From a virus: a DNA stretch of 64,000 bases. Below are positions 11,139 through 51,044 of this stretch, piece after piece; position 1 is the stretch's first letter, and each line of letters begins with the position of its first letter. The position numbers and the translations under genes were made by a program. The notes below the pieces were generated by a model. It had not been told where the DNA came from. It did not search any database and saw only the letters and a program-made list of their open reading frames with translations. The stretch lies in the IMG/VR virus record IMGVR_UViG_3300022562_002256, positions 124,001-188,000 of that record; one strand, 5' to 3'.

Positions 11139-11154
11139 TGCACAAACCGTGCCG
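11139..11154 (-). promoter_or_regulatory. -24/-12 (sigma-54-like) site
   Basis: CGGCAC...GTGCA with GG-N10-GC, facing left into the gene starting at 11115. Overlapping promoter region with the divergent site at 11173. Confidence 0.55.
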
Positions 11155-11172
11155 CGACGGGGACAACGCCCC

Positions 11173-11188
11173 CGGCACGGCCGTTGCA
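11173..11188 (+). promoter_or_regulatory. -24/-12 (sigma-54-like) site
   Basis: CGGCACGGCCGTTGCA, GG-N10-GC with a perfect TTGCA -12 box, facing right. The ATG at 11201 lies 15 nt after the -12 G. Confidence 0.6.
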
Positions 11189-11200
11189 CGCTCCCGGGGC

Positions 11201-12019
11201 ATGACCACCGACACTCTCGCCGTCCGCGCCACCGCCCGAGAGCTCGTCGCCGTGTTTCAGGAGGCTGCCGCCACCGTGCGCACGTGTTTCGGCGCGCTGC
11301 ATGCGGCTGAGGCGCGCCTCGCCGCCGCCTTCTCGATGGCGGATGGGTACGCGCGCATCCGGATCCCAGCGACCCGGTGCCACCACTCGGCCGAGTTCGA
11401 CCGGGCTGAAGAGTCCATCGCCGAGATGGCCCGGGACGCGTGGCGCGCCATCGTCGACCGACTCGACCTGCGCCGCCTGCTGTCCGTGGCACGCTATGAG
11501 CAACTCCAGACCGAGTTGGAGAAGGGGGCGCTCCCCGAGCTGACCGAGGACGCTGTGGTCGCCTTCGTACGGCGCTACGTCGACCAGATCGAGGAGATGC
11601 ACGACGAGGCTGTGGCCGAGGTGTTCGAGTTCCTGCGCCCCCGAAGTCTCGGGATGAAGCGCCTCAAGACCAACTCCGAGCTCGAGGTGCCAGCCAAGGT
11701 CATCCTGCGGTTGGTGGCGCGAGGTCCCATGGGGTACTGGCGGCTGCGTTATTGGAAGGTGGCACAAAACCTCATCGCCCTGGAAAACGTCCTCCACGCG
11801 CTTGATGGTCGTGGCATGGTGGCATCCAGCAGTCGGAGCGCCCTACAAACCGCGATCGAGGAGACCACAACGGGGACCGGGGAGACCGACCTGTTCTCGT
11901 TTCGGTGCTGCGAGAACGGGAACCTTCACTTGCGCTTCAAGCGACTCGACCTGCTCGCCCGGCTCAATGCAAAGGCGGGCGGCAAGCGGCTTCGGCCGCC
12001 GACAGCGCCCTGTGCGTAA
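11201..12019 (+). CDS. DUF4942-domain protein
   Basis: 272 residues from ATG 11201. The C-terminal FSFRCCENGNLHLRFKRLDLLARLN is characteristic of DUF4942, a domain often found near or fused to methyltransferases on plasmids and phages. Function is unknown. It converges on csf3, with a hairpin in the 47-nt gap. Nearly leaderless if the -24/-12 site upstream is its promoter. Confidence 0.75.
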   Translation: MTTDTLAVRATARELVAVFQEAAATVRTCFGALHAAEARLAAAFSMADGYARIRIPATRCHHSAEFDRAEESIAEMARDAWRAIVDRLDLRRLLSVARYEQLQTELEKGALPELTEDAVVAFVRRYVDQIEEMHDEAVAEVFEFLRPRSLGMKRLKTNSELEVPAKVILRLVARGPMGYWRLRYWKVAQNLIALENVLHALDGRGMVASSSRSALQTAIEETTTGTGETDLFSFRCCENGNLHLRFKRLDLLARLNAKAGGKRLRPPTAPCA

Positions 12020-12031
12020 ATCGTGCGCCTT

Positions 12032-12055
12032 CCGCCGCAGAATTTGCCGCGGCGG
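12032..12055. terminator. hairpin between convergent genes
   Basis: CCGCCGC and GCGGCGG arms (7 bp) around AGAATTTGCC, between the DUF4942 gene and csf3. A likely bidirectional terminator, though no T-run follows. Confidence 0.4.
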
Positions 12056-12066
12056 CCGTTGGCAAG

Positions 12067-12828
12067 TCATGCCTCTGCACCGATCCGCACGACCGGCACC
12101 ACGCACCGGGTCCGGGTCGCCTGGTGCCAATAGGGGGCGCGTGTCCCGTCCACACGCTCACACCACGACCCCGGTGCGAGCATGGCCGGGTCTGATATAC
12201 CTCCGTCGCGCACCAAAGGGAGCGACCGCTGCGGCGCCCCCTTCCACACCAGCGATCGGTCGGCGTCGAGCCGCGTGAACTCGTACCCAAGCACCGTCCC
12301 CAGCCCACGGTTGTGGTCCCGGCCGAGCCCGCCGATGAAGTCGAGCAGCGTGGCGACCTTGCCACGGTCGCCGAGCAGCGCGAAGTCCAGGTAGGGCGTG
12401 GTCAGCGTGGCCACGGGAATATTCAGGCTTTTCCCCCAGCCCCCCGAGATGCCCAACCGCTCGATCGCGTAGTGTTCCGCTCGCGCGCGCTTGCGGCGCC
12501 ACCGTTTCGACTCGACGGCGCACCGTGCTGGCCAGCCCCACGACGCGTGCGCGATCGGCCAGCCCCCGATCACCGAGTCCGCCACGGGGATCGGGATGTC
12601 GATCTTCGGCGTGCCGGCCGGAATCTCGGCGAACACGTCGTCGGGCAGCCGGCCGGTGGCGTCAAGCACCACGGCGAATTGGATGGCGCCGTCGATGGTG
12701 ATTGCGTCCCGTCCATCCCACGCAACCGGCGACGCCAGCCACACGCGCACCCGGAACGGCTCGACTCGGCTACAGCCCCACCGCGCGCGAGATCGGGTCA
12801 CCCACGGGGGTTCGACCCAGCCGATCAC
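12067..12828 (-). CDS. csf3: Csf3-like type IV CRISPR Cas5-family protein
   Basis: 253 residues from GTG 12828, overlapping the csf2 stop (GTGA). VRVWLASPVAWDGRDAITID near the N-terminus matches the ferredoxin-like RAMP start of Csf3 proteins, and two glycine-rich loops follow: GISGGWGKS at 126-134 and GGLGRDHNRGLG at 166-177. In type IV complexes the Cas5-like Csf3 caps the 5' end of the guide and processes or binds the crRNA handle. Length fits the family. Csf3 assignment is from motif recognition. Confidence 0.75.
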   Translation of the reverse strand: MIGWVEPPWVTRSRARWGCSRVEPFRVRVWLASPVAWDGRDAITIDGAIQFAVVLDATGRLPDDVFAEIPAGTPKIDIPIPVADSVIGGWPIAHASWGWPARCAVESKRWRRKRARAEHYAIERLGISGGWGKSLNIPVATLTTPYLDFALLGDRGKVATLLDFIGGLGRDHNRGLGTVLGYEFTRLDADRSLVWKGAPQRSLPLVRDGGISDPAMLAPGSWCERVDGTRAPYWHQATRTRCVVPVVRIGAEA

Positions 12829-14384
12829 GACGCGGCACCCCCGTCGCCCTCGCGCCCGCTGCGGCGTCGTCGACCGGCCTTTACGGGCCCCTTGGCGGCG
12901 GGTGGGGCTACCCCCGCGTCGCGCCCGGTCGGCGCGGTTTTGGCGGCACTCTGGCGCCGGCCTGGCCGGTCCTCGAGCAACCACGCGCGCAGCTCATCCC
13001 GGTGTTCCGCCACCCACGCCTGGTACACGGTCGGTGGCGGCAGCGGTGGTGCACTCCCGCCCGGGACATAAGCGACGAACCCCACCGCACCGAGCCCCCG
13101 GGCGTTCGCGGCGCCGACAAACCCGTCCTGCTGGAATTCTACGAGCAGATCGGCCATGCACGCCCCGGCCACCTCGCTCACGCCGTCCAGGCCGATGAGC
13201 TGAAATCTGTGCACCAACTGCACACCGGGGATGAGCACCTCCGTGTTGACCAGCATCTGCACGCCCTTGCAGTCCTCGATGTCCCGGTGGGCGTGGTGCG
13301 TCAGAAGTCTGAGTTGCGTGAGTGTGTCGGCCGGCTTCAGCGACGCCGTGAATTCGGGCAGCGTCATCGCGGCGCCATCGCGCGTCTTGGGCTGCAAGAG
13401 CGCATGCACCATCCACGCGTTCTCGCGGCACAGCAGGATCACGTCATGCACCCGGAGCAGCCCTCGCATGATCTGCCCATCAACAACCCCCGCGAACAAG
13501 TCCCACGCGGGGCATACCGCGCGAGCACGCCGCCGAACCGCCACGTCCACCGCATCGCCGTCCGCCCCCGCCTCAATGGTTCCGCCCGACAGCAGCGCGT
13601 GGGCCCGGGGCGCCGGCAAGTCCTGTGCGGTCAACCCGACAAGCTGCAGCATGCGCCCCATGATGATGTCACGCCAGCATCCGCGGACCGCGTTGCCCGA
13701 CACCAGCGGCACGATCGCGATCTCGCCTGTAACGGGTGACACCACGCGCTGTCGCCGAAACATGGTCACGTTGCCGCTCTTCTCGTCGTGACCATGAGCC
13801 ATGGGGGCGACCAGCGTCCACACGGCGGTGTATGCCCGGGGTGTGAGCAGGTCACCTGGCACCTCTGCGGTCCACGTCTCGGCACTGGCGGAGGCATCGG
13901 CCCACGGGGTGAACAACGCCTCCTCTCCGTCGACCGGCGGCGCCGTTGCGAAGGTGGCGAACAGCGCGGGGCTCTCCGTCACCGCAAGCCGGAGCGCATC
14001 GAAATCAATCGCTTTGCACACCGCTGTCCAGGAGACGGCTGCCGTGGTCTCGTCCGCCTCGGGATGCTCAATCTCCAGCACGCCCGCCGGCACGAGCAAC
14101 CGCGGGATGAGCACGTACACCGGCCGGGCCGTGATCTCCTTGCCTTCGTCGTTCTCAAAAGTCCCGCCCGTCTCATTTATGCTGAACCGCTGGCACAGCA
14201 TCCGGGTGAACTCAAGCGTCGACCGCGCGCTGGTCACCATGGGCACAAGGGCGTCGCGTAGTTCCTCGCTGATGTTGCGGCGGCGCCGCCGAGGAATGCC
14301 CTCCCAATCGACGCGGCGCCACAGTGCCCGGAGCAGGTAGGCCATGAGTGCGGTCGCGGCATGAATCGCAGGCGGTGTCGTCAT
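12825..14384 (-). CDS. csf2: Csf2-like type IV CRISPR Cas7 backbone protein with N-terminal extension
   Basis: 519 residues from ATG 14384, with an AGAGGA ribosome site. The core from about 183 to 440 shows Csf2 hallmarks: APMAHGHDEKSGNVTMFRR, VPLVSGNAVRGCWRD at 226-239, LLSGGTIEAG at 264-273, and a C-terminal GFVGAANARGLGAVGF glycine-rich loop. Cas7-like Csf2 forms the helical backbone on the guide RNA. Residues 1-182, mostly helical, are extra relative to an ordinary Cas7, and the last 75 residues are a low-complexity basic tail. Coupled to csf3. The neighbouring cysH makes this type IV-B-like. Confidence 0.8.
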   Translation of the reverse strand: MTTPPAIHAATALMAYLLRALWRRVDWEGIPRRRRRNISEELRDALVPMVTSARSTLEFTRMLCQRFSINETGGTFENDEGKEITARPVYVLIPRLLVPAGVLEIEHPEADETTAAVSWTAVCKAIDFDALRLAVTESPALFATFATAPPVDGEEALFTPWADASASAETWTAEVPGDLLTPRAYTAVWTLVAPMAHGHDEKSGNVTMFRRQRVVSPVTGEIAIVPLVSGNAVRGCWRDIIMGRMLQLVGLTAQDLPAPRAHALLSGGTIEAGADGDAVDVAVRRRARAVCPAWDLFAGVVDGQIMRGLLRVHDVILLCRENAWMVHALLQPKTRDGAAMTLPEFTASLKPADTLTQLRLLTHHAHRDIEDCKGVQMLVNTEVLIPGVQLVHRFQLIGLDGVSEVAGACMADLLVEFQQDGFVGAANARGLGAVGFVAYVPGGSAPPLPPPTVYQAWVAEHRDELRAWLLEDRPGRRQSAAKTAPTGRDAGVAPPAAKGPVKAGRRRRSGREGDGGAAS

Positions 14385-14491
14385 TCGGTCGTGTCCTCTT
14401 CGTTCTGTCCGTGTTTCGTGGCGAGGTCGACCCGCCGCTTCTATTGTAACACATCCCGCGACGGGTGTGAGGCGGCTGCACACCGGCGCGA

Positions 14492-14507
14492 TGGCACGAT
14501 GCATGCA
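14492..14507 (+). promoter_or_regulatory. -24/-12 (sigma-54-like) site
   Basis: TGGCACGATGCATGCA, GG-N10-GC, facing the rightward gene at 14545 and cysH beyond it. Confidence 0.55.
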
Positions 14508-14519
14508 TGTGGATGCGCC

Positions 14520-14532
14520 CGGGGGGGGGGGA
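14520..14532. repeat. homopolymeric G tract
   Basis: A run of 11 G (about 14521-14531) between the promoter-like site and the ATG at 14545. It overlaps the ribosome-binding region, and an ATG at 14513 lies upstream in another frame, so tract length would decide which frame that ATG joins. Confidence 0.5.
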
Positions 14533-14544
14533 GGACCAACCGCG

Positions 14545-14775
14545 ATGAGACGACGTGTCATTGTCGACCCGTACACGCCCGGTAGACACGTCAATGCGAT
14601 GACCATCGACGATGACACGGGCAAGCGAATTTTCGTCTTCCCCCGCCCCGGCAGCGTGGTCGTAGGTGTCTGTGAGCGCAAGAAGGCAGCGAGCGTTCTC
14701 CTACGAGTCGAGGAGGTTGACGACCTCCTCGCCGCCCTGCGTGACGCGAGCGCCGTGGCAGGAGGCAAACCGTGA
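14545..14775 (+). CDS. small unknown protein upstream of cysH
   Basis: 76 residues from ATG 14545, preceded by GGAGG. Beta-rich start (RRRVIVDPYTPGRHVNAMTIDDD) and a C-terminal helix VEEVDDLLAALRDA. Not recognised. Confidence 0.65.
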   Translation: MRRRVIVDPYTPGRHVNAMTIDDDTGKRIFVFPRPGSVVVGVCERKKAASVLLRVEEVDDLLAALRDASAVAGGKP

Positions 14776-14904
14776 CGCGCGCGAGGGTCGCCGTCCCTGA
14801 CGCGCTGGGACGCCAACGATGGTAAGCGTCTTCTAGACGGGCAGTCCGTCGCGTGGACAGCAAAACCATGGGTCTGGGCGCTGACATACTCGGTGGTCCG
14901 ATGA
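14772..14904 (+). CDS. small protein, probable single-base frameshift
   Basis: GTG at 14772 overlaps the upstream stop (GTGA). The first frame stops after 17 codons, but a +1 shift near 14796 joins a frame reading LTRWDANDGKRLLDGQSVAW to a stop at 14904. The joined product is about 43 residues. One extra C in the assembly would explain it. Confidence 0.4.
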
Positions 14905-14910
14905 CGTCGG

Positions 14911-15879
14911 ATGCGGGGCATGGCTGACCGCTCCCGGTTCGAGTCGACGTGCCCGTGCCCCGCGTGCGGCGGGTGCGCATGCCGGTGGCTGCTGCGTATG
15001 CCCGCTACCGTGTGCCAGTCTGTGCCACGATGTGCCTGCTCACGAGGGTTGGCTGCCGACGAGCCTGTCCTGTGGCCCACCGACGTCGCTGCGTGGGCCC
15101 GGTGGATGGCCGCGGCCCGCATCCATGCCCGCTCGGTGGCTCACCGCCGCGTTGTCGAGCAGGCACGGCGGGCGGTGGACCAGGCGCTTGTCGGCGCGTC
15201 GACGGCATGCGTGATGGTGAGCGCAGGAAAGGACTCGACCATCCTCGCGCACGTGGTGACGGCGTTGATGGGGCGGCACGACGTGACGTTGGTGTCCGAA
15301 AAAGATGACCTCGACTACCCGGGGGAGGAGGAGTACCTGCGGCTCCTCGCCGCGGAGTGGGGGGCAACGCTCCGCGTCGTACGGCCGCGCGTATCTCCAG
15401 CCGAATGGATTCGATCGCGAGGAGCCACACGCGCTCACCGGGCCGCGGATGACATCCACTCACGCGCGGCTGGGCTGAGCAAGGCGTGCTTTTATCGCGT
15501 GGTCGAGGCGGTCAACGCCGAGTACGATGTCGTGATGCTCGGTCTCCGTGCGCAGGAGAGCACGGTTCGACGAATCGTAAGGCACAGGCGGGGGCTGGTC
15601 TACACGCTCGCGTCGGGGCAGCGCCGGGCCAACCCGCTGTTCGATTGGCGAGGGCTTGACCTCTACGCCTACGCCGAGAGCCACAGCATCCCCCTGCTGC
15701 CGCTCTATCGGTGCATCGCGTTCATGCACGAGCGCCGGCCGTGGGACGTGCGTAAGGCGTGGTGGCTCCCCGGGGGCCATTCTACACGCAACGGCGGAGT
15801 CGCGTGGCTCAAGCACTACTTCCCCACACTGTATGATCAACTTTGCGAATGGATCCCAGGCGCGCCCGCCTATCGGTGA
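14911..15879 (+). CDS. cysH: CysH-like PAPS-reductase-family protein of type IV-B locus
   Basis: 322 residues. The PP-loop VSAGKDST at about 101-108 marks an ATP pyrophosphatase/PAPS-reductase fold, followed by DLDYPGEEEYL and a conserved GLRAQES segment. The ECG(I/L)H motif of assimilatory CysH is absent. The N-terminus is Cys-rich (CPCPACGGCACR, then CACS), a possible metal site. A CysH-like gene beside csf2 and csf3 is the defining association of type IV-B CRISPR loci. Start ATG 14911 or 14920. Confidence 0.8.
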   Translation: MRGMADRSRFESTCPCPACGGCACRWLLRMPATVCQSVPRCACSRGLAADEPVLWPTDVAAWARWMAAARIHARSVAHRRVVEQARRAVDQALVGASTACVMVSAGKDSTILAHVVTALMGRHDVTLVSEKDDLDYPGEEEYLRLLAAEWGATLRVVRPRVSPAEWIRSRGATRAHRAADDIHSRAAGLSKACFYRVVEAVNAEYDVVMLGLRAQESTVRRIVRHRRGLVYTLASGQRRANPLFDWRGLDLYAYAESHSIPLLPLYRCIAFMHERRPWDVRKAWWLPGGHSTRNGGVAWLKHYFPTLYDQLCEWIPGAPAYR

Positions 15880-15957
15880 GTCATCCCCCCTCTTGCGCTG
15901 GCTGTGGGGTGGGTTGCACATCAGTTTATGTGGCGGGTGTGGAGCGGGGGGGTAGGC

Positions 15958-15974
15958 GGCGCAAGGCTTGCGCC
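15958..15974. terminator. hairpin downstream of cysH
   Basis: GGCGCAAGGCTTGCGCC is an almost perfect palindrome about 80 nt after the cysH stop; no T-run. A weak terminator candidate. Confidence 0.3.
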
Positions 15975-15976
15975 GA

Positions 15977-15995
15977 ACCGGCAGAATTTACCTGC
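15977..15995. repeat. dispersed AGAATTTACC palindromic element, copy 1
   Basis: ACCGGCAGAATTTACCTGC, a variant of the GCCGGCAGAATTTACCGGC element found at 33440-33458 and, inverted, at 46833-46851. Lies in a gene-free stretch (15880-16142) upstream of a -24/-12 site. Confidence 0.45.
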
Positions 15996-16113
15996 GCCGA
16001 TCCGGCACGATTTCCCAAACGACACGACACCCACGCGACGCACACGTGGCGTAGCGCACGAAAGTCTTGCGCGCCTATTTGGGCACGCGCGCAAGAAAAC
16101 GAGGGCCGGAGTG

Positions 16114-16129
16114 TGGCACGGGCAATGCA
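16114..16129 (+). promoter_or_regulatory. -24/-12 (sigma-54-like) site
   Basis: TGGCACGGGCAATGCA, GG-N10-GC. An ATG at 16143 is 16 nt after the -12 G, but it opens only a 17-codon frame, and the site faces the end of a leftward gene. It could drive an antisense RNA. Confidence 0.45.
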
Positions 16130-16168
16130 AGAGTGCTTAGGCATGACCACGGCGAATCCATCTTCGCC

Positions 16169-16804
16169 TCACTCGATTGTATCGGCAGAAACTTGACTGT
16201 ATTGGTAGACCACATCGGCAAGATCAAACCGCCACCTTGCCACCATCTTGCGCCCGGGCGCCCCGTGGGTGGGCCACCTTGCTTCTGGCATCCCGGAGTC
16301 GCCTATCACCACCTCGGGCATCACCCACCGCATCCCCGCTGCGAGCACGGCGTCCTCGAGCGCCACCATGTCGTTCGCCCACGCCCGCAACACATCGTTC
16401 GGAAGGCGGTCCCACCGCGTGTCGTACCACACAAACCCGCCTCTTGTCGTACAGTGGACACCCTTCAATCGGAGGGCGTATCGCTCCGCTCGCTCTGACA
16501 TCGGCGTTCTCACGCTTCTGTACCCCAGGGCATCCTGCCCGGCATCGCGCCATGTCGGGCCAGTGGCATCGGCGTCGCCAAGGGCAAGCCACTCATCGGG
16601 TCTCCCAGACCGAACGCCGTGCCACACGCCGTGACCATCCTTATCGACCACGAGCGGGCGCCATTCCTCATTCAACGTCATGTGGGCGTTGCACCTTATC
16701 CGCTCGACGCGAAGCCACTCACACTCGGGCCGGTAGAGGCGCACGTCGGAACGCCCACACACGCTGCACGCGTACCTGTGGTAGTATCGGTTACCGCTGG
16801 TCAT
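16169..16804 (-). CDS. zinc-ribbon unknown protein
   Basis: 211 residues from ATG 16804 (ATGA overlap with the gene upstream). YACSVCGRSDV and a later C near 35 may bind zinc. The C-terminal half (WARWRFDLADVVYQYSQV-like) resembles common phage unknowns. Not assigned. Confidence 0.6.
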   Translation of the reverse strand: MTSGNRYYHRYACSVCGRSDVRLYRPECEWLRVERIRCNAHMTLNEEWRPLVVDKDGHGVWHGVRSGRPDEWLALGDADATGPTWRDAGQDALGYRSVRTPMSERAERYALRLKGVHCTTRGGFVWYDTRWDRLPNDVLRAWANDMVALEDAVLAAGMRWVMPEVVIGDSGMPEARWPTHGAPGRKMVARWRFDLADVVYQYSQVSADTIE

Positions 16805-17040
16805 GTCGGCCTCGCCCACCACTCCGTCTTGCACGTTGTGCAGACCAACCACTCCACGACATTGGCACACCGGCGCCACGCGTGGCACACACTGCACCAC
16901 TTTTCCACGACCGTCGTCTCCGTCGCATACAAAGGGGTGCTGATAACCACCCCTTGCATGGTCACAAGATCGACGGGCGCTCCAGTCAAGCGCTCGACGC
17001 GTCGATTCCGTTCTTCCCCGTGGGTGTGCATGCCAGCCAT
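16801..17040 (-). CDS. small zinc-ribbon protein
   Basis: 79 residues from ATG 17040, or 76 from ATG 17031, which is 15 nt after the -12 G of the site upstream. Two pairs, CSVC and CTTC, make a zinc ribbon. Confidence 0.6.
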   Translation of the reverse strand: MAGMHTHGEERNRRVERLTGAPVDLVTMQGVVISTPLYATETTVVEKWCSVCHAWRRCANVVEWLVCTTCKTEWWARPT

Positions 17041-17043
17041 CAA

Positions 17044-17059
17044 TGCACATACCGTGCCA
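17044..17059 (-). promoter_or_regulatory. -24/-12 (sigma-54-like) site
   Basis: TGGCACGGTATGTGCA, GG-N10-GC, facing left into the gene at 17031/17040. Confidence 0.6.
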
Positions 17060-17228
17060 ACGGTGAGCGGCGGCGTTCTCTTCCGCCGCGGGCTGTGTAG
17101 AACCGCCTTCCACCGCCATAGCCCATCTGTTATGCAATTTGTGCGCGCCGCGGCGGTAATTTTTACGCGCCGACTACTCGGCCTTCTGGGTGCTACGATC
17201 TGCTACCCCTCCGCCGCCCTACGCATCA

Positions 17229-17249
17229 CGACGTAAGTCACGTCGTGCA
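17229..17249. terminator. inverted repeat at the end of a leftward gene
   Basis: CACGACGT and ACGTCGTG arms separated by 5 nt overlap the stop of the gene at 17238. Terminator candidate without T-run. Confidence 0.35.
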
Positions 17250-17717
17250 TAAGTTGCGGGGGTCGCCGGTGTCTCGCATGCCACGCCGCAGTTTGGTCAG
17301 CTCGGCGTGGACCGAGTAGGGCGTCACCTGCCGGTCCACCCAGTCTCGCAACGCCGCCTCGTATGCCCACCGCTTGCCCCCCCGCGCCTTCAGCAGCGGC
17401 ACTGGATCGTGATCCCGGAGCGCCAACCGTCCGACCTCTGACTCGCTCATGCCGAGCACATGGGCAATGTCACGGCGCCCATGCACACGCGCCAGGGCGG
17501 TCCCGTCCGCGAGCACGCCACCGTTGAACGTGCGGGCCTTCCACTCGTCGAGCGCGCCCGGCTTTGCCCACGGCTGTCCCCGAACCGCCATCACCGGCAG
17601 CGGGTCGACGCGCCTACGCGCGTAAGCCAACACCGTGTCGGGGCACGACACGACGGCCAACCGGCGCGCTATGGCCTTCCAGCCGATGAGAGGGGGCGCC
17701 GATGGGGCTGTCAGCAC
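17238..17717 (-). CDS. DNA-binding protein with two winged-HTH/AlpA-like units
   Basis: 159 residues from GTG 17717, overlapping the upstream stop. Two similar units, LIGWKAIARRL..LPV and RRDIAHVLGMSESEVGRL..PVPL with GGKRWAYEAALRDWV, look like tandem MerR/AlpA-type helix-turn-helix domains, as in Nu1-like terminase small subunits or excisionase-like regulators. Which of these it is cannot be decided. Confidence 0.55.
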   Translation of the reverse strand: MLTAPSAPPLIGWKAIARRLAVVSCPDTVLAYARRRVDPLPVMAVRGQPWAKPGALDEWKARTFNGGVLADGTALARVHGRRDIAHVLGMSESEVGRLALRDHDPVPLLKARGGKRWAYEAALRDWVDRQVTPYSVHAELTKLRRGMRDTGDPRNLCTT

Positions 17718-18262
17718 GGCGGGCCACACCAGCCCCACCACAGGCTGATGAACATGTCGGCCGCCGCCGACAACGCCGCGTCGTGATCCTCGTAGATGCC
17801 GGTCACACGGTCGGGTTCGTCTTGCATGCGCACGATGCCGACGTGGCCGCCGCGGCAGAGCCCCGTCGTCGGGTATGGCCCATTGGGGAGCGCCTCCGTT
17901 ATGGCCCACGCAGCCCGCTGCATAGGCGACAGATCCGCCCATGCCACGCAGTGCGGATTCCCACCACACGCGGCGGCGTACGTCTGTTCGCCGGCTGACG
18001 GTGCCGAGTTGTCCACCGGCGCTGGAGGAGACTCACTCGCGTCCCAGCGCTCGACTATCGCGCCGGTGCCGGTGACATCGCGCATGCCCACCGCGCAGTC
18101 CAGAAATTCCCCCCCAGCGATTTCGCGCGCGCGCACGCCATGGGCGGTGTGGCCCCCACAGAACAGCAATACCGTGCTTTCCGCCAGCCCGTCAACCACG
18201 CGGCGCCGCCAATAGAGCCGCCCCGGCGTGGGCCGCCACGCCGCATCAATCACATCGCCCAT
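17711..18262 (-). CDS. unknown protein
   Basis: 183 residues from ATG 18262 with a strong GGAGGA ribosome site. N-terminal beta-rich domain (RPTPGRLYWRRRVVDGLAES) and Cys at CGGNPHC. Not recognised. First gene after the -24/-12 site at 18293. Confidence 0.65.
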   Translation of the reverse strand: MGDVIDAAWRPTPGRLYWRRRVVDGLAESTVLLFCGGHTAHGVRAREIAGGEFLDCAVGMRDVTGTGAIVERWDASESPPAPVDNSAPSAGEQTYAAACGGNPHCVAWADLSPMQRAAWAITEALPNGPYPTTGLCRGGHVGIVRMQDEPDRVTGIYEDHDAALSAAADMFISLWWGWCGPPC

Positions 18263-18292
18263 GTGCTTGCTCCTCCGCGAGCGCCCCCCACA

Positions 18293-18308
18293 TGCACGCC
18301 GTGTGCCA
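18293..18308 (-). promoter_or_regulatory. -24/-12 (sigma-54-like) site
   Basis: TGGCACACGGCGTGCA, GG-N10-GC, facing left. Here a conventional ribosome site and a leader of about 20 nt precede the ATG. Confidence 0.55.
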
Positions 18309-18312
18309 GCAC

Positions 18313-19530
18313 TCAGGGAGCGTCCCCGCGGAAATAGGACGCCTCGATGCGGGCGGGCCGCTCGCTTGGTGACGACGGGCGGCGGCCCGCCCTGTCGTCG
18401 CGCGGGGGGATGAGCCCGTGGAGTTGCGACTCGTCGGCAACCAAATCCCGCCGCCCCTCCATGAGGGCACGCATCCCAGCCGCGGGCACCCTCCGCAAGC
18501 GCGACTCCAGGCGACGTCGCGCCGCCGCAAGGATGCGCCGCACATCCGCGTCCGAAAGCCACGCCGACGCCGCGTTAATGGCCTCAGCCGCATCGAGCAA
18601 CGCCTCACGCCGGGCCGCCACCACACCGACACGTCGCACGCGCACGTCGGTCGGGCGCACATCGACCCCGCCTACCCACGCCCGATACATCAACACTCGC
18701 TCGGCCATAGGGACATCAGCGCCAGCGAGCGCTGACACTTCCGCCGGCGACAGGTCCGCCGCCCCTACCCCCCGCTCAGCGTCTACCCCCCGTTCGACCG
18801 TAGCAAGGCCCTTGACACCAAACTGCGCCGCCCTGGTCTCGCGACATTCGATCTCCCCCCATCGCGCCCGCGTCCGGCCCCGTGTCTCCGCCGCCCGGTC
18901 GAATGAAACCGCTCCCGCACCAAGCGGGCAGCGGGCCGCCGACGCCGCTGCCAACACGTGCTGCGCCGACCGGAACGGCGCGCGCGGGGTAGTCGTCTGG
19001 CGTTGCCGGATCCGTCGATCGCACGGGTCACCACTCAGAAGCGCCGCAACCGCAGGGTCATGCGCCCAGGGGGCCAGTGCCGCCACGATCGCCTCCCAGC
19101 CGCCACTGAGCAACGGGCGGAGGTCGTTGTTCTCGAGCGCGCGGAACGAAAGCGACACCATGCGCCGCACCTCGTCAGGGGATGTCCGCGGTGGCCGGAT
19201 GAACCGCCACCGCTCGTACGCCTCCAACAGGAGGGGGCAGTCGCGCTTTTCGTCGCGGAGGTTGTGCTCCGTCGCCCCGTAGGGCATGCACACGCGCCGC
19301 GTAGATGGCTTTCCGTATGCCGGTCGGCCCTGTGGGTAGTCGGCGACGTGGCGGCCCCGTGTGGGGGCGCTGTGTGCCACGGCGAGGCGTTCCGCCAGCG
19401 GGCGCTCGACCACATCACCCCACGGCGAGGTCGGATCCGCCGGGTCCAGACGCCGGACGCTCAATGTCGCTCGAGAACGGGGTGGCGGAGTATGTTCGCT
19501 CGGGATCTGTTGCACCTGGGGGGCTGCCAT
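18313..19530 (-). CDS. unknown 405-residue protein
   Basis: Starts at ATG 19530 with a GGAGAG ribosome site. Largely helical, arginine/alanine-rich, with no recognised domain and no zinc-finger cysteine cluster. Among the larger unknowns near the csf genes, so it was considered as a missing CRISPR large subunit, but nothing in the sequence supports that. Confidence 0.6.
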   Translation of the reverse strand: MAAPQVQQIPSEHTPPPRSRATLSVRRLDPADPTSPWGDVVERPLAERLAVAHSAPTRGRHVADYPQGRPAYGKPSTRRVCMPYGATEHNLRDEKRDCPLLLEAYERWRFIRPPRTSPDEVRRMVSLSFRALENNDLRPLLSGGWEAIVAALAPWAHDPAVAALLSGDPCDRRIRQRQTTTPRAPFRSAQHVLAAASAARCPLGAGAVSFDRAAETRGRTRARWGEIECRETRAAQFGVKGLATVERGVDAERGVGAADLSPAEVSALAGADVPMAERVLMYRAWVGGVDVRPTDVRVRRVGVVAARREALLDAAEAINAASAWLSDADVRRILAAARRRLESRLRRVPAAGMRALMEGRRDLVADESQLHGLIPPRDDRAGRRPSSPSERPARIEASYFRGDAP

Positions 19531-19563
19531 GCTCTCCTGTCTAGCACGGCCCCGGCATCTCGG

Positions 19564-20049
19564 CTAAGAGACATCGGCTTGCTCGCAGCAGCGAAGCAAC
19601 TCGGAGGTCAACAATCCACACGCCGCCGCGACCCGTCCCAACACAACGAGCGACGGCACCCGCTCGTCACTTTCCATCAAGGATATGTAGGGGCTGGTTA
19701 CGCCGACAGCCCGGGCGAGCGCCTTCTGGCTCAACCGCGCACTGACACGCGCGCGCCGCAGTCCTTTCCCACAGCGCAGACGGGCGTCAGCCTTTTCCGC
19801 CCTGGCGGCGTCATGCCTTATGGTGGCAGACTGATGCCTGTTCGCGAGGGATCGCAGGTCCCGTGCCAGGTTGGGGAACTCGCGTTCACAAGCGTCCGCA
19901 TACGCCAGCGCCGCCGGAACCGCATACGGGTCGTGGGCCCAATCGAGCACAAAGTACTCGCAACCCTCGTGCTTCGCCCCGGGCGCAGAACCGCCATCCG
20001 TGCGCTCCACCGTGAACTTCCTGTACACCCCTTCGCTTTTCTCACTCAT
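19564..20049 (-). CDS. XRE-family transcriptional regulator with N-terminal domain
   Basis: 161 residues from ATG 20049 (AAGGAG upstream). Residues about 100-150 (RVSARLSQKALARAVGVTSPYISLMESDERVPSL) are a Cro/C1-type helix-turn-helix. The N-terminal half is unassigned. A candidate phage repressor or regulator of the leftward genes. Confidence 0.8.
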   Translation of the reverse strand: MSEKSEGVYRKFTVERTDGGSAPGAKHEGCEYFVLDWAHDPYAVPAALAYADACEREFPNLARDLRSLANRHQSATIRHDAARAEKADARLRCGKGLRRARVSARLSQKALARAVGVTSPYISLMESDERVPSLVVLGRVAAACGLLTSELLRCCEQADVS

Positions 20050-20070
20050 CGCCAACTCCTTGATACCCTT

Positions 20071-20679
20071 TCACCGCCCCACCAACATAGCCCCCGGCAA
20101 GAGCCCCAAGCCCCGGGCAAGAGCAGCACAGAAACGCAGCTTTTCTTCAGCGCACCACCATCGCACGTAGTACGTGACGTCGACCATCTCACACCCCACG
20201 TCGACTACGTGGTCGACGCACCACCCCGTCGGTGCGAGTAGCGCACACAGTTCGGCATTGGCGGGGGGCGGGTCGCTGAACTGCCGCAACCACAGCATGC
20301 GCGCTCGGTGCGCTGCAATCACCTCGGCGGGGAGAGGGGTGCGTATGACGCTCTCCCCCCTGACCACAAGGCGCTCCCCCTCCCACCACCTATACCGCTC
20401 CCACGGCACGGTGTCATGCTCGATGAAGTGGGGCACGCAAGAGCATGGGCGCTCCGTTGGGTGCGCATCGCTCATCGTCTCCACGATGGTTACCTGCTCG
20501 CTGTAGTCGGGCGAGAACCACCACCAATCGCCGGCAGGTTCAAGCCCCTCAAACGTGACGGGTGGGGGCGTCGCGCCCAACCCCACCGCAGCAAGTGGCA
20601 CCCGCACGGCGAGGTGGGCGTGCCGGTGCTTGCTGCGCACCCCACGCATGAGACGCTTCCGTACCGTTCTAGCGTTCAC
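20071..20679 (-). CDS. unknown protein
   Basis: 202 residues from GTG 20679 (GTGA overlap). Beta-rich middle (FEGLEPAGDWWWFSPDY) and a Cys-containing C-terminal part. Not recognised. Confidence 0.6.
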   Translation of the reverse strand: MNARTVRKRLMRGVRSKHRHAHLAVRVPLAAVGLGATPPPVTFEGLEPAGDWWWFSPDYSEQVTIVETMSDAHPTERPCSCVPHFIEHDTVPWERYRWWEGERLVVRGESVIRTPLPAEVIAAHRARMLWLRQFSDPPPANAELCALLAPTGWCVDHVVDVGCEMVDVTYYVRWWCAEEKLRFCAALARGLGLLPGAMLVGR

Positions 20680-21184
20680 TTAGCCCCCACCTTGCGCGCC
20701 AACCACGCGCGCGCCTCCGGGCTCGCGGGCTCGACGTACACCAATGCGAGACCGTACCACCAACCGGTGTCGGCATCGCACGTGGTGCGACGCACGCACT
20801 TGACCACGAGCCACTCCCCCGCCCACTCTCCCGGCGCAGGTCTCCCCGCTCCATGGAATAGGAGTAGAGCGCGCTAGCGCGAGGGTCATCGATGTCGACT
20901 TGACATGCCCACCGCGCCGGATGGCGCCGCGGGTCGTCGGGGTACAAGCGAAGGCTGCACGCCGCGATCTCGCCCAGCATGAGGGCGCGCCACCCCTCGA
21001 TCGGTGTCGCATCGGGCGGGGCGTGGAGGTAGCACACCTTCGCACCGTCGGGGCGCACGTACACCGCCACCCGGCTGTAGTAGCCACACTCGACGCAGCA
21101 CGTGTGCTGCGTCGAGTAGCGCAGCAAGCGCCCACCCCCGCAGGTCGTGAAGGTGCACCCGCTGCACAGCGGTGGTAAAATCAA
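20676..21184 (-). CDS. Cys-rich protein, probable frameshift
   Basis: The first frame (TTG 21184) encodes an N-terminal zinc-finger-like part with CSGC, CCVEC and then SYSMERGDLRRES. Near 20830-20850 a -1 shift in a G-rich run joins EWLVVKCVRRTTCDADTGW and ends at 20676, where the stop overlaps the next start (GTGA). The second frame has far better codon usage, so the gene is probably continuous with one missing base in the assembly. Confidence 0.55.
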
Positions 21185-27012: not shown

Positions 27013-27029
27013 GGCGACGTCACTCCTGG

Positions 27030-39560: not shown

Positions 39561-39576
39561 TGGCACAGCGCATGCA
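39561..39576 (+). promoter_or_regulatory. -24/-12 (sigma-54-like) site
   Basis: TGGCACAGCGCATGCA, GG-N10-GC, facing right; ATG 39590 is 16 nt after the -12 G. Confidence 0.6.
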
Positions 39577-39589: not shown

Positions 39590-39928
39590 ATGGTGAGTGT
39601 TGTGATGCATGATGCAATTCTCCGCCTCGCGCGCGGCGAGTTTACCACCGACCTGGCGCGGGTGTGGCGGCGCCTGCCGACCGAATGCCGCCACGACGGT
39701 GCCGCCGCGGCACGCGCGGCGCGCACCGTTCGGATGCACACCAGTCGGTGGAGGTCCGACGGGCATGGCGGGTGGGTGCATGTGAACGGGCTCGGATTTC
39801 AGACGGTTGCCCTTGTCCACGGTTGGCACCGTGGCTGGGTTCTGATCAAGCCGTCGGGGGTGCGCCTCTGGTATCCATCCCCCGCAAAGGCTATCAGGGC
39901 GTGGGCCAAACGCCGTCCACCTTGCTAA
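39590..39928 (+). CDS. unknown protein
   Basis: 112 residues from ATG 39590. N-terminal helical part, then beta-rich WVHVNGLGFQTVALVHGWHRGWVLIKP. Not recognised. Confidence 0.6.
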   Translation: MVSVVMHDAILRLARGEFTTDLARVWRRLPTECRHDGAAAARAARTVRMHTSRWRSDGHGGWVHVNGLGFQTVALVHGWHRGWVLIKPSGVRLWYPSPAKAIRAWAKRRPPC

Positions 39929-41549: not shown

Positions 41550-41565
41550 TGCACGGCTCGTGCCA
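41550..41565 (-). promoter_or_regulatory. -24/-12 (sigma-54-like) site
   Basis: TGGCACGAGCCGTGCA, GG-N10-GC, facing left. The mobile element begins only about 32 nt upstream, so any upstream activator site has been displaced. Confidence 0.6.
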
Positions 41566-46316: not shown

Positions 46317-46619
46317 TTAGTCGTCGTACCATCCGTCATCGTCATCGCAATCGGCGGTGTGGTTGGGGGCATCGAGGAGGATCGCGTCCTCCTCGGCCGG
46401 GGTCAACTCACCGCCCCATACAACCATGATCGACCGCCCGAAGGCGTCGAGGACCAGGTTCCCCGCCTCGTCGCGCTTCTCGACGAGGATCTCGTCGATC
46501 TCGGCGTCGGCCGGCTCACCGACAGACCGGTCGGCGGGATAAAGGATGACGCAGACCGTCAGTTCGACCATCTCGTCATCTCGCTCGACCTCGTACCCCA
46601 TCTCGATGTGCGTCGTCAT
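46317..46619 (-). CDS. small acidic protein
   Basis: 100 residues from ATG 46619, 15 nt after the -12 G upstream. Very acidic C-terminus (CDDDDGWYDD). No motif. Confidence 0.6.
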   Translation of the reverse strand: MTTHIEMGYEVERDDEMVELTVCVILYPADRSVGEPADAEIDEILVEKRDEAGNLVLDAFGRSIMVVWGGELTPAEEDAILLDAPNHTADCDDDDGWYDD

Positions 46620-46631: not shown

Positions 46632-46647
46632 TGCACGGTCCGTGCCA
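46632..46647 (-). promoter_or_regulatory. -24/-12 (sigma-54-like) site
   Basis: TGGCACGGACCGTGCA, GG-N10-GC, facing left. Confidence 0.6.
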
Positions 46648-46699
46648 GGTGACGTCGACGCCCCTGGTTGTTGTGGGCTTGTGTTTGCGGCGCATCTCC

Positions 46700-46880
46700 G
46701 CTCGGCGGGGGGCGCCCCTTCGAATCTGGAAAGCAGGGTTCGCACGCGCGGTTTGCGCGTCGATTTTGGCGAGTTGGTGAATCCGATCACGGTGGCACGC
46801 ACGATCTGGCACTCAAGTGGCTCTCAGATTATGCCGGTAAATTCTGCCGGCCAAACGCAAGAAGTGCGCACGTCTCAGGG
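46700..46880 (+). repeat. dispersed intergenic repeat, copy 3
   Basis: Matches the inverted sequence at 33436-33600. Contains GCCGGTAAATTCTGCCGGC at 46833-46851 and GCACTCAAGTGGCT, also found at 33304. Lies between two outward-facing -24/-12 sites. Confidence 0.55.
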
Positions 46881-46923
46881 AGGCGAGTCCACGGGCGGCG
46901 GTGGCACGGCGGCCTGCGCGCCA

Positions 46924-46939
46924 TGGCACGCATTGTGCA
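46924..46939 (+). promoter_or_regulatory. -24/-12 (sigma-54-like) site
   Basis: TGGCACGCATTGTGCA, GG-N10-GC, facing right; ATG 46952 is 15 nt after the -12 G. Confidence 0.65.
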
Positions 46940-47836: not shown

Positions 47837-48130
47837 ATGGCTCGAACCAAGAAACAACCAGCACAATCCATGCCAGGCGCACCGATCAGCGACGACCGCG
47901 TGGCGGACGACTCGATCGCGCGCAAGCCCCTTCCTGGAGGATGCCCGGTCCAGCTTTGGCCCGTGGAACTGGCGTCGGGGCTTCGCGTGGTCGAGCCCCC
48001 AGCGCACGGTGATCTCTTCGCATGGGCGGCGTCAAGGCCCGCTCAGGGGACACAACTCAAGCTGTTCGATTCCGCGGGCGGGGTCGGTGATGACGATGAC
48101 GGACATGGGAGGACCACGCCCCGAGGATGA
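47837..48130 (+). CDS. small protein sharing the transposase C-terminal tail
   Basis: 97 residues from ATG 47837. GDLFAWAASRPAQGTQLKLFDS nearly repeats the transposase ending, including the clamp-binding-like QLKLF. It may be a remnant of another insertion or a small clamp-binding protein. Confidence 0.6.
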   Translation: MARTKKQPAQSMPGAPISDDRVADDSIARKPLPGGCPVQLWPVELASGLRVVEPPAHGDLFAWAASRPAQGTQLKLFDSAGGVGDDDDGHGRTTPRG

Positions 48131-48257
48131 TGAGGCGCCACCCGAGCGGCTTCCGGAACGGCCGGCGGTGCGCGCAGTGATCCATGGCGGAGCGCCTCGC
48201 AAGCCATGCCCGCGGGCCCATGCTTGGCACGGCACGTGCAAGCGTGCCCCGGCATGA
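48090..48257 (+). CDS. 55-residue small protein
   Basis: ATG 48090; its stop overlaps the start of the DUF262 gene (ATGA). The last third spans the -24/-12 site at 48225. Low-complexity proline/glutamate-rich. Confidence 0.4.
   Translation: MTMTDMGGPRPEDDEAPPERLPERPAVRAVIHGGAPRKPCPRAHAWHGTCKRAPA
48225..48240 (+). promoter_or_regulatory. -24/-12 (sigma-54-like) site
   Basis: TGGCACGGCACGTGCA, GG-N10-GC, facing right; ATG 48254 is 16 nt after the -12 G. Confidence 0.65.
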
Positions 48258-48814
48258 AGGCGCCCATCACCAACACCGCCCGGGTCGCTATAGGCTTCCG
48301 CGATGTGCCTCGGTTTCCAGAAGCACGCTACGAGATCACGGTCGATTGGCGTGACCTGGAGGGTCACATCGGAGCCATCGACAAAGATCGTGGGTTCGTC
48401 ATGGAGCCGGACTACCAGCGCGGTCACGTGTGGACTGACGCGCAGCGGTCGGCTTACATCGAGTACGGGCTCATGGGGGGCGAGTCGTCGATGGTAATCA
48501 CCGTCAACTGCGCTGAGTGGATTTCCGGACTTGACGCGCAGGTCGAGTTACTCGATGGGCTGCAGCGTGTCACGGCGGTGAGGATGTTCCTCCGCGGCGA
48601 TGCCACAGCGTTCGGACAGCGCGTGCATGAATTTGGAGACATCCGCCGTTGTCGAGCGGGCTTCCGGTGGCGCGTGCTCACGCTCGCGACGCGGGTGCAG
48701 GTGCTCCGGCAATACCTGCTCATGAACTCGGGGGGTGTTGTTCACTCGCCCAAGGAGATCGCGCGCGTGCGGGCGTTGCTGGACGCGGCGCAAAGAGAGG
48801 GTGACGCCGCGTGA
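48254..48814 (+). CDS. DUF262-domain (ParB-like) protein
   Basis: 186 residues from ATG 48254. PDYQRGHVWT at 52-61 and LLDGLQRVTAV at 99-109 are the DUF262 signatures (the QR of DGQQR-type motif is kept). DUF262 occurs in GmrSD-type restriction enzymes of modified DNA. Here it is a single domain without the HNH (DUF1524) partner. Confidence 0.75.
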   Translation: MKAPITNTARVAIGFRDVPRFPEARYEITVDWRDLEGHIGAIDKDRGFVMEPDYQRGHVWTDAQRSAYIEYGLMGGESSMVITVNCAEWISGLDAQVELLDGLQRVTAVRMFLRGDATAFGQRVHEFGDIRRCRAGFRWRVLTLATRVQVLRQYLLMNSGGVVHSPKEIARVRALLDAAQREGDAA

Positions 48815-48933
48815 CATTTTGGCCATGGCAGACCACGCCGATGGGATGGACGAATCCCGGGCTGAGACCCGAGACCGCCCGAACCAGCAACACCAACGGA
48901 GGCACACATGACTTGTTCTGTAAGTTGCACTGA
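48811..48933 (+). CDS. 40-residue small protein
   Basis: GTG 48811 overlapping the DUF262 stop; ends 26 nt inside the next gene. Tryptophan/proline-rich. Confidence 0.35.
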   Translation: MTFWPWQTTPMGWTNPGLRPETARTSNTNGGTHDLFCKLH

Positions 48934-49609
48934 CGCCGGATTTTCACGCGTTCACGCGTTCGTTCCCTCTCACACGTCTGCGTTTGTGGTGGACACGGAC
49001 ACGTATGCTGGTCACTTCGAGCGTGAGCTCGTTGCCCATATGACAGGTCACGTCGGCGACTGCGGCGTGGGGGACGCCCTGGCCGCGGCGGCCCGCGCCG
49101 AGTTGCCATCGCGTGTGCGGGAATGGGCGGATGCGCACGTCGTGAAGCTGCCAGCCGCGGATGAGCAACGGTGTTGCAGGCCGGCCGGCCTCGTTCCAAC
49201 GCCAGGCTGGTTCAACACCGGCCTGGGTGACCACTTCCCCGATGGCACGTCGACCGAGGTGGTGAGGGCTGCGTACGAGAAGGCCGCGCGGGCGGAGCTC
49301 GCCTATCGAGCGGATGGCCTGGAGCGACAGCGAGCAAGCGCCATCATGCGACCGGACATCGAAGCGATCGACGCCGCCCTAGTGGAGGCACGGGAGTGGA
49401 CGGAGAACCTCTTGGCGCAAGGCCCGGGCCGCTACGCCGCCTACCTGTCCGTGGCGGTCTGGCTCGCCGCGCCACCACCCGAGTGGGTGGTAAAGACTTT
49501 CAAGGAGCGGGCCTGGTCGTTCCAGGCGTTGCCGTCGCCAAAGCACAAGCCACACGCCATCACGGGATTCCGCTATCAGTTCGGCGATGGCACCACGCGA
49601 GCGGCTTAG
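48908..49609 (+). CDS. unknown protein
   Basis: 233 residues from ATG 48908 with CGGAGG. Helical, one Cys pair (CCRPAG). Not recognised. Confidence 0.65.
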   Translation: MTCSVSCTDAGFSRVHAFVPSHTSAFVVDTDTYAGHFERELVAHMTGHVGDCGVGDALAAAARAELPSRVREWADAHVVKLPAADEQRCCRPAGLVPTPGWFNTGLGDHFPDGTSTEVVRAAYEKAARAELAYRADGLERQRASAIMRPDIEAIDAALVEAREWTENLLAQGPGRYAAYLSVAVWLAAPPPEWVVKTFKERAWSFQALPSPKHKPHAITGFRYQFGDGTTRAA

Positions 49610-49622: not shown

Positions 49623-49638
49623 TGGCACGCTTTGTGCA
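49623..49638 (+). promoter_or_regulatory. -24/-12 (sigma-54-like) site
   Basis: TGGCACGCTTTGTGCA, GG-N10-GC, facing right. A leader with a short hairpin (CTCGCGC/GCGCGAG) precedes ATG 49677. Confidence 0.65.
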
Positions 49639-49676: not shown

Positions 49677-49958
49677 ATGGAGATGCTCATGCCAACCAGA
49701 AAAATCGCCGATATGCCGCTCCCCGACCAATGGCGGCGGGTGTGCACGCATCCCGAACACAACCCGCCATCGATGATGGTGTACCAACCCGGGGTGTACG
49801 AGCACACGTGTCCCGGGTGCGGTCGACGCGTAACGTTCACCGTGCCCATGGTGTGGTGGTCTACTAAGCCGCTCGCGTGGTGCCATCAGCCGAGCGATGA
49901 CGATGCCTCTGCTCAGGCTTACAGGCGGGGCAGAGCGACGCTCCCGCCGACCCTATGA
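49677..49958 (+). CDS. small zinc-ribbon protein
   Basis: 93 residues from ATG 49677. A single clear CPGC plus a further C and H residues. Not recognised; coupled to the next gene (ATGA). Confidence 0.6.
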   Translation: MEMLMPTRKIADMPLPDQWRRVCTHPEHNPPSMMVYQPGVYEHTCPGCGRRVTFTVPMVWWSTKPLAWCHQPSDDDASAQAYRRGRATLPPTL

Positions 49959-50506
49959 GATATCGCTGCGCCGGCGGCGTGGTCTACTCGGCGCGTGTGG
50001 ATCACCGCGCCGACCCGGACGCGTTGATGGTCACCATCAGGCCGCTGGCCAGCGATGCGCCTGACCTTATCGGTTCCGCGTTCGCCCCGTCGCATCAGAT
50101 ATGGTCTGCGGCCATGCGTGCCCGAGATGAGGCGGCCGAGTGGCGGAGGCGGGGTGACGACCTGTTGGAGGCACCTACCGCGGTCGAGAGGGTGGCATGC
50201 TACGCGCGCGCAGAGCGGATCGAGGCTGAGGCGTGGGCGGCATACATGCCAGCGTTCATGGCCGAGATGCGTGTCAGTGCGGGGCTGCCTCCAAGTCGGT
50301 GGGGGCCCGGCGAGCGGGCGGCGGACCAGCGCGGGGTGGTAGCGCGACGGGACGCGTGGGAGCACGTGCTCAGCCGCGATCGTGTGGTTGTGCTGTGCTA
50401 CTGTGTGGTGGCACCGTTGCCGGCTGAGCTGCGATGCCATCGGGTGTTGCTCCGGCGAGACATCTTGCCGGCCATGGGCATGAGGGACGGCGGTGAGCTG
50501 CGGTGA
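49955..50506 (+). CDS. unknown helical protein
   Basis: 183 residues from ATG 49955. Mainly helical with WRRRGDDLLEA and a C-terminal hydrophobic helix. No motif. Confidence 0.6.
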   Translation: MRYRCAGGVVYSARVDHRADPDALMVTIRPLASDAPDLIGSAFAPSHQIWSAAMRARDEAAEWRRRGDDLLEAPTAVERVACYARAERIEAEAWAAYMPAFMAEMRVSAGLPPSRWGPGERAADQRGVVARRDAWEHVLSRDRVVVLCYCVVAPLPAELRCHRVLLRRDILPAMGMRDGGELR

Positions 50507-50515
50507 ACCCGGCAC

Positions 50516-50531
50516 AAGTGCCCAGGCACTT
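50516..50531. terminator. hairpin between convergent genes
   Basis: AAGTGCCCAGGCACTT is a small inverted repeat in the 49-nt gap; no T-run. Confidence 0.3.
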
Positions 50532-50555
50532 CAGTGGGAGAGGCCGGCGCCGACA

Positions 50556-50981
50556 TCACGATGATGGAGGGCACTCGTGTTGGTCCCACGGCGGAAACGG
50601 GAACTTGAGCATAGCGACGCGGACGTCGAAGGGCTTGTAGACGCCGCTTGCGATGAGCTTTCCGTCGACCAGACGGACGGTGCCGCTCCACGTGTGCCCG
50701 AAGGGCTCGCTGTTCCATGACCATGGCTCGCGGCTCACGAGCGAGCAGCCCGTGTCAGCGAGCAGCCCGTCGAGGTCGGTGGGGAGCACCAAAGTCGTCC
50801 ACCCCTCGATACCGTGCGCGGGGTCGGCGTAGAACAGAATGGCGCGCGTGGCGAACTGGACATCGCCGCCAACCAACCCCACCTTGAGGATTTCGTAGGG
50901 CCTGGCGATCGTGGTGGGATCGTCGACGAAGCGGCTTCCGCACTTGGGGCAGAGGAGGATGGCGGGGAGGGGTGTATCCAT
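50556..50981 (-). CDS. zinc-finger-containing unknown protein
   Basis: 141 residues from ATG 50981, 15 nt after the -12 G. CPKCGSRF at the N-terminus; rest beta-rich. Not recognised. Confidence 0.6.
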   Translation of the reverse strand: MDTPLPAILLCPKCGSRFVDDPTTIARPYEILKVGLVGGDVQFATRAILFYADPAHGIEGWTTLVLPTDLDGLLADTGCSLVSREPWSWNSEPFGHTWSGTVRLVDGKLIASGVYKPFDVRVAMLKFPFPPWDQHECPPSS

Positions 50982-50993
50982 AAGCGCGTCCTG

Positions 50994-51009
50994 TGCAAGA
51001 CGCGGGCCG
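50994..51009 (-). promoter_or_regulatory. -24/-12 (sigma-54-like) site, variant
   Basis: CGGCCCGCGTCTTGCA, GG-N10-GC with TTGCA but no CAC; facing left, divergent from the site at 51029. Confidence 0.45.
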
Positions 51010-51028
51010 CCTTGAGGGGCGGCCCGGG

Positions 51029-51044
51029 TGGCATGGATCGTGCA
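51029..51044 (+). promoter_or_regulatory. -24/-12 (sigma-54-like) site
   Basis: TGGCATGGATCGTGCA, GG-N10-GC, facing right. Confidence 0.5.

Follow-up and report, generated by a model that had tools for sequence, protein, structure and literature searches.

Which factor reads a short sequence that a phage repeats ahead of many of its genes? The question arises from a 64,000-nucleotide stretch (the window; bases 124001-188000) of the 198,045-bp viral record IMGVR_UViG_3300022562_002256 (G000), in which a first-pass annotation had counted 21 sites with a GG-N10-GC core between positions 11139 and 51044 and had read them as sigma-54-like promoters. Positions below are those of the window unless the record is named. 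From the sequence we judge, with a probability of roughly 0.6, that the sites are -24/-12 sigma-54-type promoters, read by the host RpoN holoenzyme together with a host enhancer-binding protein and driving a dispersed regulon of small accessory genes.

Abundance and distribution of the sites

The whole record contains 43 copies of the exact pattern YGGCAC-N5-GTGCA, whereas 20 dinucleotide shuffles averaged 1.0. The window has 16 copies; its dinucleotide shuffles averaged 0.2, and none of 60 had more than one. The reversed pattern, used as a control over the whole record, gave 3 matches. Between 11139 and 51044, the relaxed pattern [CT]GGCA[CT]-N5-[GAT]TGC[AT] retrieved 23 sites, so the initial count of 21 held, and the record-wide set is larger still. 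Of the 23 sites, 15 are exact, against an initial count of 17 for TGGCAC or CGGCAC followed by GTGCA, and one more exact site lies just outside that range at 4879-4894. A loose motif search allowing three mismatches showed no excess over shuffles, indicating that the signal resides in the tight consensus.

Non-coding DNA, which makes up 18% of the record by gene calls made for this analysis, holds 38 of the 43 exact sites (p about 1e-23), and the frequency check proposed with the first annotation, against shuffled and coding DNA, thus came out unequal on both counts. Among neighbouring sites no more than 600 bp apart, 11 arrangements are divergent, 1 is convergent and 2 run in the same direction. 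Almost all of the sites are aimed at small genes. None of the 43 sites lies at 60-105 kb (replication) or beyond 175.5 kb (head genes) of the record, where 14.7 were expected.

Start-codon distance and motif shape

An ATG stands 11-15 nt past the last motif base at 30 of the 43 exact sites, against 7% expected (p about 1e-25). These ATGs nearly always fall at 12 or 13 nt, are preceded by GNC and, for the most part, lack a Shine-Dalgarno (SD) sequence. The 12-nt class has G at -3 and C at -1 in 13/13 cases each, and the 13-nt class has them in 13/19 and 17/19, respectively. This context is much weaker in SD genes (G at -3 in 27/78) and tracks the position of the ATG, not that of the motif. At the seven core sites whose start codon is 23-53 nt away, an SD sequence is present. 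Around the sites we found two conserved blocks 5 bp apart, no further conserved promoter element and no conserved -10 hexamer. The fixed ATG distance and the leader-dependent use of SD sequences point to promoters with a fixed start point and argue against a ribosome-binding element. That the sites would be promoters rather than operators is strongly supported by this arrangement, and the start-codon positions imply that transcription would begin about 11-12 nt after the GC.

In cluster K mycobacteriophages, start-associated sequences are likewise conserved elements just 5' of the start codons of small genes, and they contain the ribosome-binding site. Unlike them, the present elements neither contain nor abut an SD sequence: the near-leaderless genes mostly have none, and the distant starts have a separate one farther downstream.

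The motif is also nearly palindromic, and binding by a phage regulator had been the alternative offered by the first-pass annotation. The exact dyad GCAC-N5-GTGC, with C prevailing at base 11 and a G at base 12 that makes the symmetry complete, would suit operators of a phage or host DNA-binding regulator (GCACG-N3-CGTGC; L5-repressor- or LexA-like) at a fixed place in ordinary promoters. L5-type mycobacteriophage repressors indeed use many short asymmetric intergenic operators oriented with transcription. The overall motif, TGGCACG-N4-RTGCA, is nevertheless strictly asymmetric in its flanks, with G at base 2 in 44/44 sites and, at base 16, where dyad symmetry would demand C, A in 43/51 and C in 3/51. 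Neither the dyad symmetry nor the variable start distance expected of L5- or LexA-type operators was found; the sites instead occupy the core-promoter position at a fixed 12-13 nt from the ATG, with no other promoter element conserved nearby, and site and spacing recur in phages without a shared protein (see below). Strict asymmetry and fixed spacing thus weaken this alternative, which we regard as improbable.

The motif in other phages and in Polyangia

In a scan of IMG/VR, the motif followed by ATGA 12-13 nt on was found in 17 stretches, against 4 with the spacing 6 nt longer. When GNC-ATG was used instead, the GTGCA form gave 24 matches against 6 in the spacing control, and the TTGCA form 42 against 6, some of the TTGCA matches lying within repeats. 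Several near-leaderless sites each were present in G003 (63 kb), G005 (36 kb), G006 (62 kb), G008 (124 kb) and G009 (44 kb), and base 12 of these sites is G in 24, A in 4, C in 1 and T in 0. A 73-kb contig (IMGVR_UViG_3300014613_000025; L203) carries nine near-leaderless sigma-54-like sites in 13 kb. In two related contigs, IMGVR_UViG_3300046535_000926 (L208) and IMGVR_UViG_3300046514_000372 (L209), TTGCA and GTGCA sites are both conserved and share one ATG spacing, so that these contigs usefully bridge the two forms.

G006 and G009 are related; otherwise, the motif-bearing contigs are largely unrelated. No protein is common to all of G003, G005, G006, G008 and G009, and no GAFTGA-bearing frame was found in any of them, which makes a host factor likely and a shared phage regulator unlikely. 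A weak AAA+ match in G008 was considered as a bacterial enhancer-binding protein (bEBP) and rejected, the frame reading as Mg-chelatase/ComM-like.

Among cellular genomes, the strict pattern gave 41 matches in GTDB representatives, seven of them from the myxobacterial class Polyangia, judged by record title. The GNC-ATG form was found 25 times in 290 Polyangia genomes against 0 for a reversed control that does not preserve dinucleotide content, and in 78 Polyangia genomes the counts were 35 against 3 for GTGCA and 17 against 1 for TTGCA. The sites are sparse (0-3 per genome), and many of the genes behind them resemble, by eye, lipoproteins or secreted proteins. This fits a view put forward in PMC3162934, that sigma-54 controls the cell exterior. 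Relatives of one G006 protein occur in 3 of the 290 genomes, on contigs with only one near-leaderless site of this type (TTGCT, ATG 12 nt on). These data show that the architecture exists in Polyangia, not that Polyangia are the hosts, and the relatives of the G006 protein do not settle the host.

Weighing the sigma-54 reading

The GG-N10-GC core and the TGGCAC block of sigma-54 promoters are present at the sites. The Myxococcus -24/-12 consensus is TGGCACG-N4-TTGC(T/A) (PMC7910581), and the sites agree with sigma-54 promoters in the GG-N10-GC spacing, the TGGCACG block, T or C at base 1 and A or T at base 16. The predicted start 11-12 nt past the GC, where sigma-54 promoters have it about 12 nt past, and putative upstream dyads shared by divergent genes would be further points of agreement. 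As first noted, the consensus is one base off the textbook TTGCA, with a purine, G or A, standing at base 12 where the textbook form has T. The rarely deviating sigma-54 bases are GG and TGC, and the T before TGC is not among them (PMC4591121); the base that differs in the phage sites is that less critical T. TTGCA coexists with GTGCA at the same spacing in G000 (11173), L208 and L209, and three G000 sites with T at base 12 have an ATG at 11-15 nt. Of the initial interpretation, the promoter part is strongly supported by ATG distance, direction, context and the presence of SD sequences mainly in longer leaders; the sigma-54 part, which is probable, draws support from geometry, the GG-N10-GC core, the mixed TTGC and GTGC sites and the lack of a phage-shared factor.

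If this reading is correct, the conserved purine three bases before the ATG would be the first base of the transcript. The C of GC would then lie near -11/-12 and the GG near -24, and the mRNA leader would be 2-3 nt long. In E. coli, chromatin immunoprecipitation sequencing of sigma-54 placed starts 19 bp from the motif centre (PMC4591121). Activators would bind dyads located 50-200 bp upstream, with one enhancer region serving both genes of a divergent pair. One site outside the window, at record 23514-23529 (-), is located just ahead of a sigma-70-family gene (record 22641-23429); a 24-codon leader open reading frame (ORF) begins 13 nt past the site and ends in a TGA that overlaps the TTG with which the sigma frame starts. 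Because the site directly precedes this gene, it may start a cascade through the phage sigma factor.

Several observations weigh against the sigma-54 reading, among them the dinucleotide limit of the Polyangia control given above. Base 12 in G000 is G in 53, A in 8 and T in 7 sites, unlike the textbook TTGC. With 40 exact sites and 24 that have one mismatch, conservation is tighter than in usual sigma-54 regulons. The predicted near-leaderless mRNAs and the presence of about 40 sites in one phage also differ from known sigma-54 promoters. We found no RpoN or enhancer-binding protein encoded in G000, which instead carries three mutually paralogous sigma-70-family genes with regions 2 and 4. The myxobacterium phages Mx1, Mx4, Mx8 and Mx9 have no site, and Myxococcus xanthus phages were rejected as relatives on that ground. 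Conserved upstream elements were rejected as regulon-wide enhancers, being mostly copies of two duplicated intergenic modules. Dyads with arms of at least 7 in G000 occur in 33% of upstream regions, 17% of shuffles and 49% of downstream regions, that is, with no excess over downstream.

The phage sigma-70-family factors are the main rival readers of the motif. Phages commonly use sigma factors of their own for gene classes, and the three genes in the record (22641-23429, -; 77556-78608, +; 95491-96246, +) could serve a phage-specific class of which the motif is the promoter. Sigma-70-family promoters, though, have two hexamers about 17 bp apart (a gap of about 16-18 bp separates -35 from -10), with the -10 element near -7 to -12. 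Here the two conserved blocks are separated by 5 bp and stop about 10 nt short of the predicted start, with no conserved -10 hexamer. Moreover, phmmer found a homologue only in G009 among the five other motif-bearing contigs, and the same architecture stands on Polyangia chromosomes. We consider recognition by a phage sigma-70-family factor unlikely.

To our knowledge, there is no second factor with GG-N10-GC recognition. An undescribed non-RpoN host initiation factor reading a -24/-12-like promoter with an RTGCA -12 element would explain why almost every near-leaderless site in the five other phages has a purine at base 12. The coexisting TTGCA sites of G000, L208 and L209 and the position of the deviating base outside the critical sigma-54 positions (PMC4591121) speak against it, and we rate it slightly below the two other alternatives.

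A proposed phage regulon under host control

Phage phiCbK lacks sites like those described here. In pili- and flagellum-tropic phages of Alphaproteobacteria, CtrA-controlled promoters have been described (PMC9437464). As in the sigma-54 reading, many sites for a host master regulator lie in phage promoter regions there; unlike here, CtrA is a response regulator with a different motif and a focused site distribution.

Phages normally use the main host sigma factor, sigma factors of their own or their own polymerases, and sigma-54 requires an ATP-driven activator. The first-pass annotation knew of no phage with many sigma-54 promoters, and searches of open-access papers likewise turned up no phage with an array of RpoN-type promoters. 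More tentatively, and with somewhat less than even confidence, the sites may represent a widespread mode of phage control, in which largely unrelated phages, probably with Polyangia-like or other bEBP-rich hosts, use an RTGCA variant of the -24/-12 promoter to put dozens of accessory genes under host sigma-54. The mRNAs would be near-leaderless, and the accessory genes would respond to host enhancer-binding proteins and, in G000, feed a cascade to a phage sigma-70-family factor. Such a regulon, if true, would tie phage accessory genes to host signalling such as starvation, envelope stress or development. The RTGCA form, the near-leaderless starts and phage use on this scale are the new parts, and the fixed start context offers an easy way to look for such phages and their hosts.

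Individual sites in the window

On the minus strand, an ATG follows 12 nt downstream of TGGCACGGTATGTGCA (17044-17059; ORF 16804-17031), TGGCACGGACAGTGCA (33129-33144; ORF 32790-33116) and TGGCACGGACCGTGCA (46632-46647; ORF 46320-46619). It follows at 13 nt behind TGGCACGCATCGTGCA (4879-4894; ORF 4485-4865, 127 aa), TGGCACGGCACGTGCT (28508-28523; ORF 28294-28494), CGGCACGGAAAGTGCA (30111-30126; ORF 29975-30097) and TGGCACGCCACGTGCA (39518-39533; ORF 39286-39504), at 14 nt behind TGGCATGGATCGTGCA (26994-27009; ORF 26701-26979) and at 15 nt behind TGGCACGAGCCGTGCA (41550-41565; 23-codon ORF). On the plus strand, the distance is 12 nt for CGGCACGGCCGTTGCA, of the textbook TTGCA form (11173-11188; ORF 11201-12016, 272 aa), and TGGCACGCATTGTGCA (46924-46939; 25-codon ORF), and 13 nt for TGGCACGGGCAATGCA (16114-16129; 17-codon ORF), TGGCACGGTGCGTGCA (33645-33660; ORF 33674-33916), TGGCACAGCGCATGCA (39561-39576; ORF 39590-39925) and TGGCACGGCACGTGCA (48225-48240; ORF 48254-48811, 186 aa). 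The sites at 33129 and 33645, 39518 and 39561, and 46632 and 46924 are divergent. TGGCATGGATCGTGCA recurs at 51029-51044 (+) with ATGs 9 and 21 nt downstream, the latter after GGAGGAAC.

Start codons are farther away at six sites. Back to back with the 11173 site, CGGCACGGTTTGTGCA (11139-11154, -) has a GTG 23 nt downstream after an SD-like GAGG (ORF 10858-11115, 86 aa). The ATG is 22 nt from TGGCACGGCACGTGCA at 32300-32315 (-), with a short frame; 30 nt from TGGCACACGGCGTGCA (18293-18308, -), after GGAGGAG (ORF 17714-18262); and 38 nt from TGGCACGCCACGTGCA at 30758-30773 (-), after AAAGGAGAG, with a frame of fewer than 40 codons. SD-led ATGs lie 37 nt from TGGCACGATGCATGCA, an ATGCA form (14492-14507, +; ORF 14545-14772), and 50 nt from TGGCACGCTTTGTGCA (49623-49638, +; ORF 49689-49955). 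TGGCACGTGATGTGCA (25740-25755, -) has no clear downstream start, and the weak TGGCATGGATTGTGCT (47860-47875, -), also without one, is possibly a chance match. A perfect 17-bp palindrome, TGGCACAAAGTGTGCCA, at 53633-53649 is a fully symmetric version of the motif; it lies in the gap that precedes the portal and head genes, which begin at 54021.

Upstream regions

Sigma-54 promoters work with an AAA+ activator and enhancer sites 80-200 bp upstream, and upstream enhancers at the present sites are plausible. The divergent intergenic region 33145-33644, a candidate enhancer, contains GTGGC-N5-GCCAC dyads together with AGCCACTTGAGTGC and GGCAGAATTTACCGG elements, and several divergent regions of G000 hold a module with either three such dyads or GGCAGAATTTACCGG, AGCCACTTGAGTGC being common to both. 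Upstream of the sites in other phages we found TGACAACAATTGTTGTCA in G005, GTNACGTNAC shared by G006 and G008, and GTGAC-N7-GTCAC in G009. Dyads with arms of at least 7 occur in 48% of upstream regions of the phages other than G000, compared with 18% in shuffles and 20% in downstream controls.

The two module families, each about 250-330 bp and rich in inverted repeats, lie between divergent promoters before different genes. Family i is found at record 15258-15502, 46665-46936, 106259-106574 and 157145 onward, and family ii at record 23530, 49749, 57150, 117612, 119540 and 170648; the divergent module between two sites at 46648-46923 of the window belongs to family ii.

Downstream genes and genome context

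Among 45 downstream proteins scanned, only three match Pfam (DUF4942, GmrSD_N, CxxCxxCC), and a PHROGs scan gave four families with one member each. The products are mostly short orphan proteins, as expected for accessory or host-interaction genes.

G000, with a GC content of about 66%, is a tailed phage with portal, Mu-like head protease and major head protein genes at 54021-60801 and, elsewhere, genes for baseplate J protein, DnaB, RecD2, a DNA polymerase III beta clamp and methylases. The clamp gene (record 48186-49349) encodes 387 aa with three DnaN domains and about 27% identity to the clamps of other phages. Megablast of 11139-30000 against the phage collection found no close relative; host searches by homology gave no genome match for DnaB and only remote phage matches for the head protease and DnaN. 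Near 32.2 kb of the record, GGGTTCGAATCCCGCC and, after it, GCGTCCACTA look like the 3' half of a tRNA, and ARAGORN called no whole tRNA there.

A second promoter-like class in G000 has GGTTAT, which either precedes the ATG by about 9-10 nt or has TTGACA ahead of it at about 17 bp, as at record 51065, 54618, 69196, 73208, 88773 and 103589. This class suggests that leaderless starts arise from sigma-70-type promoters too.

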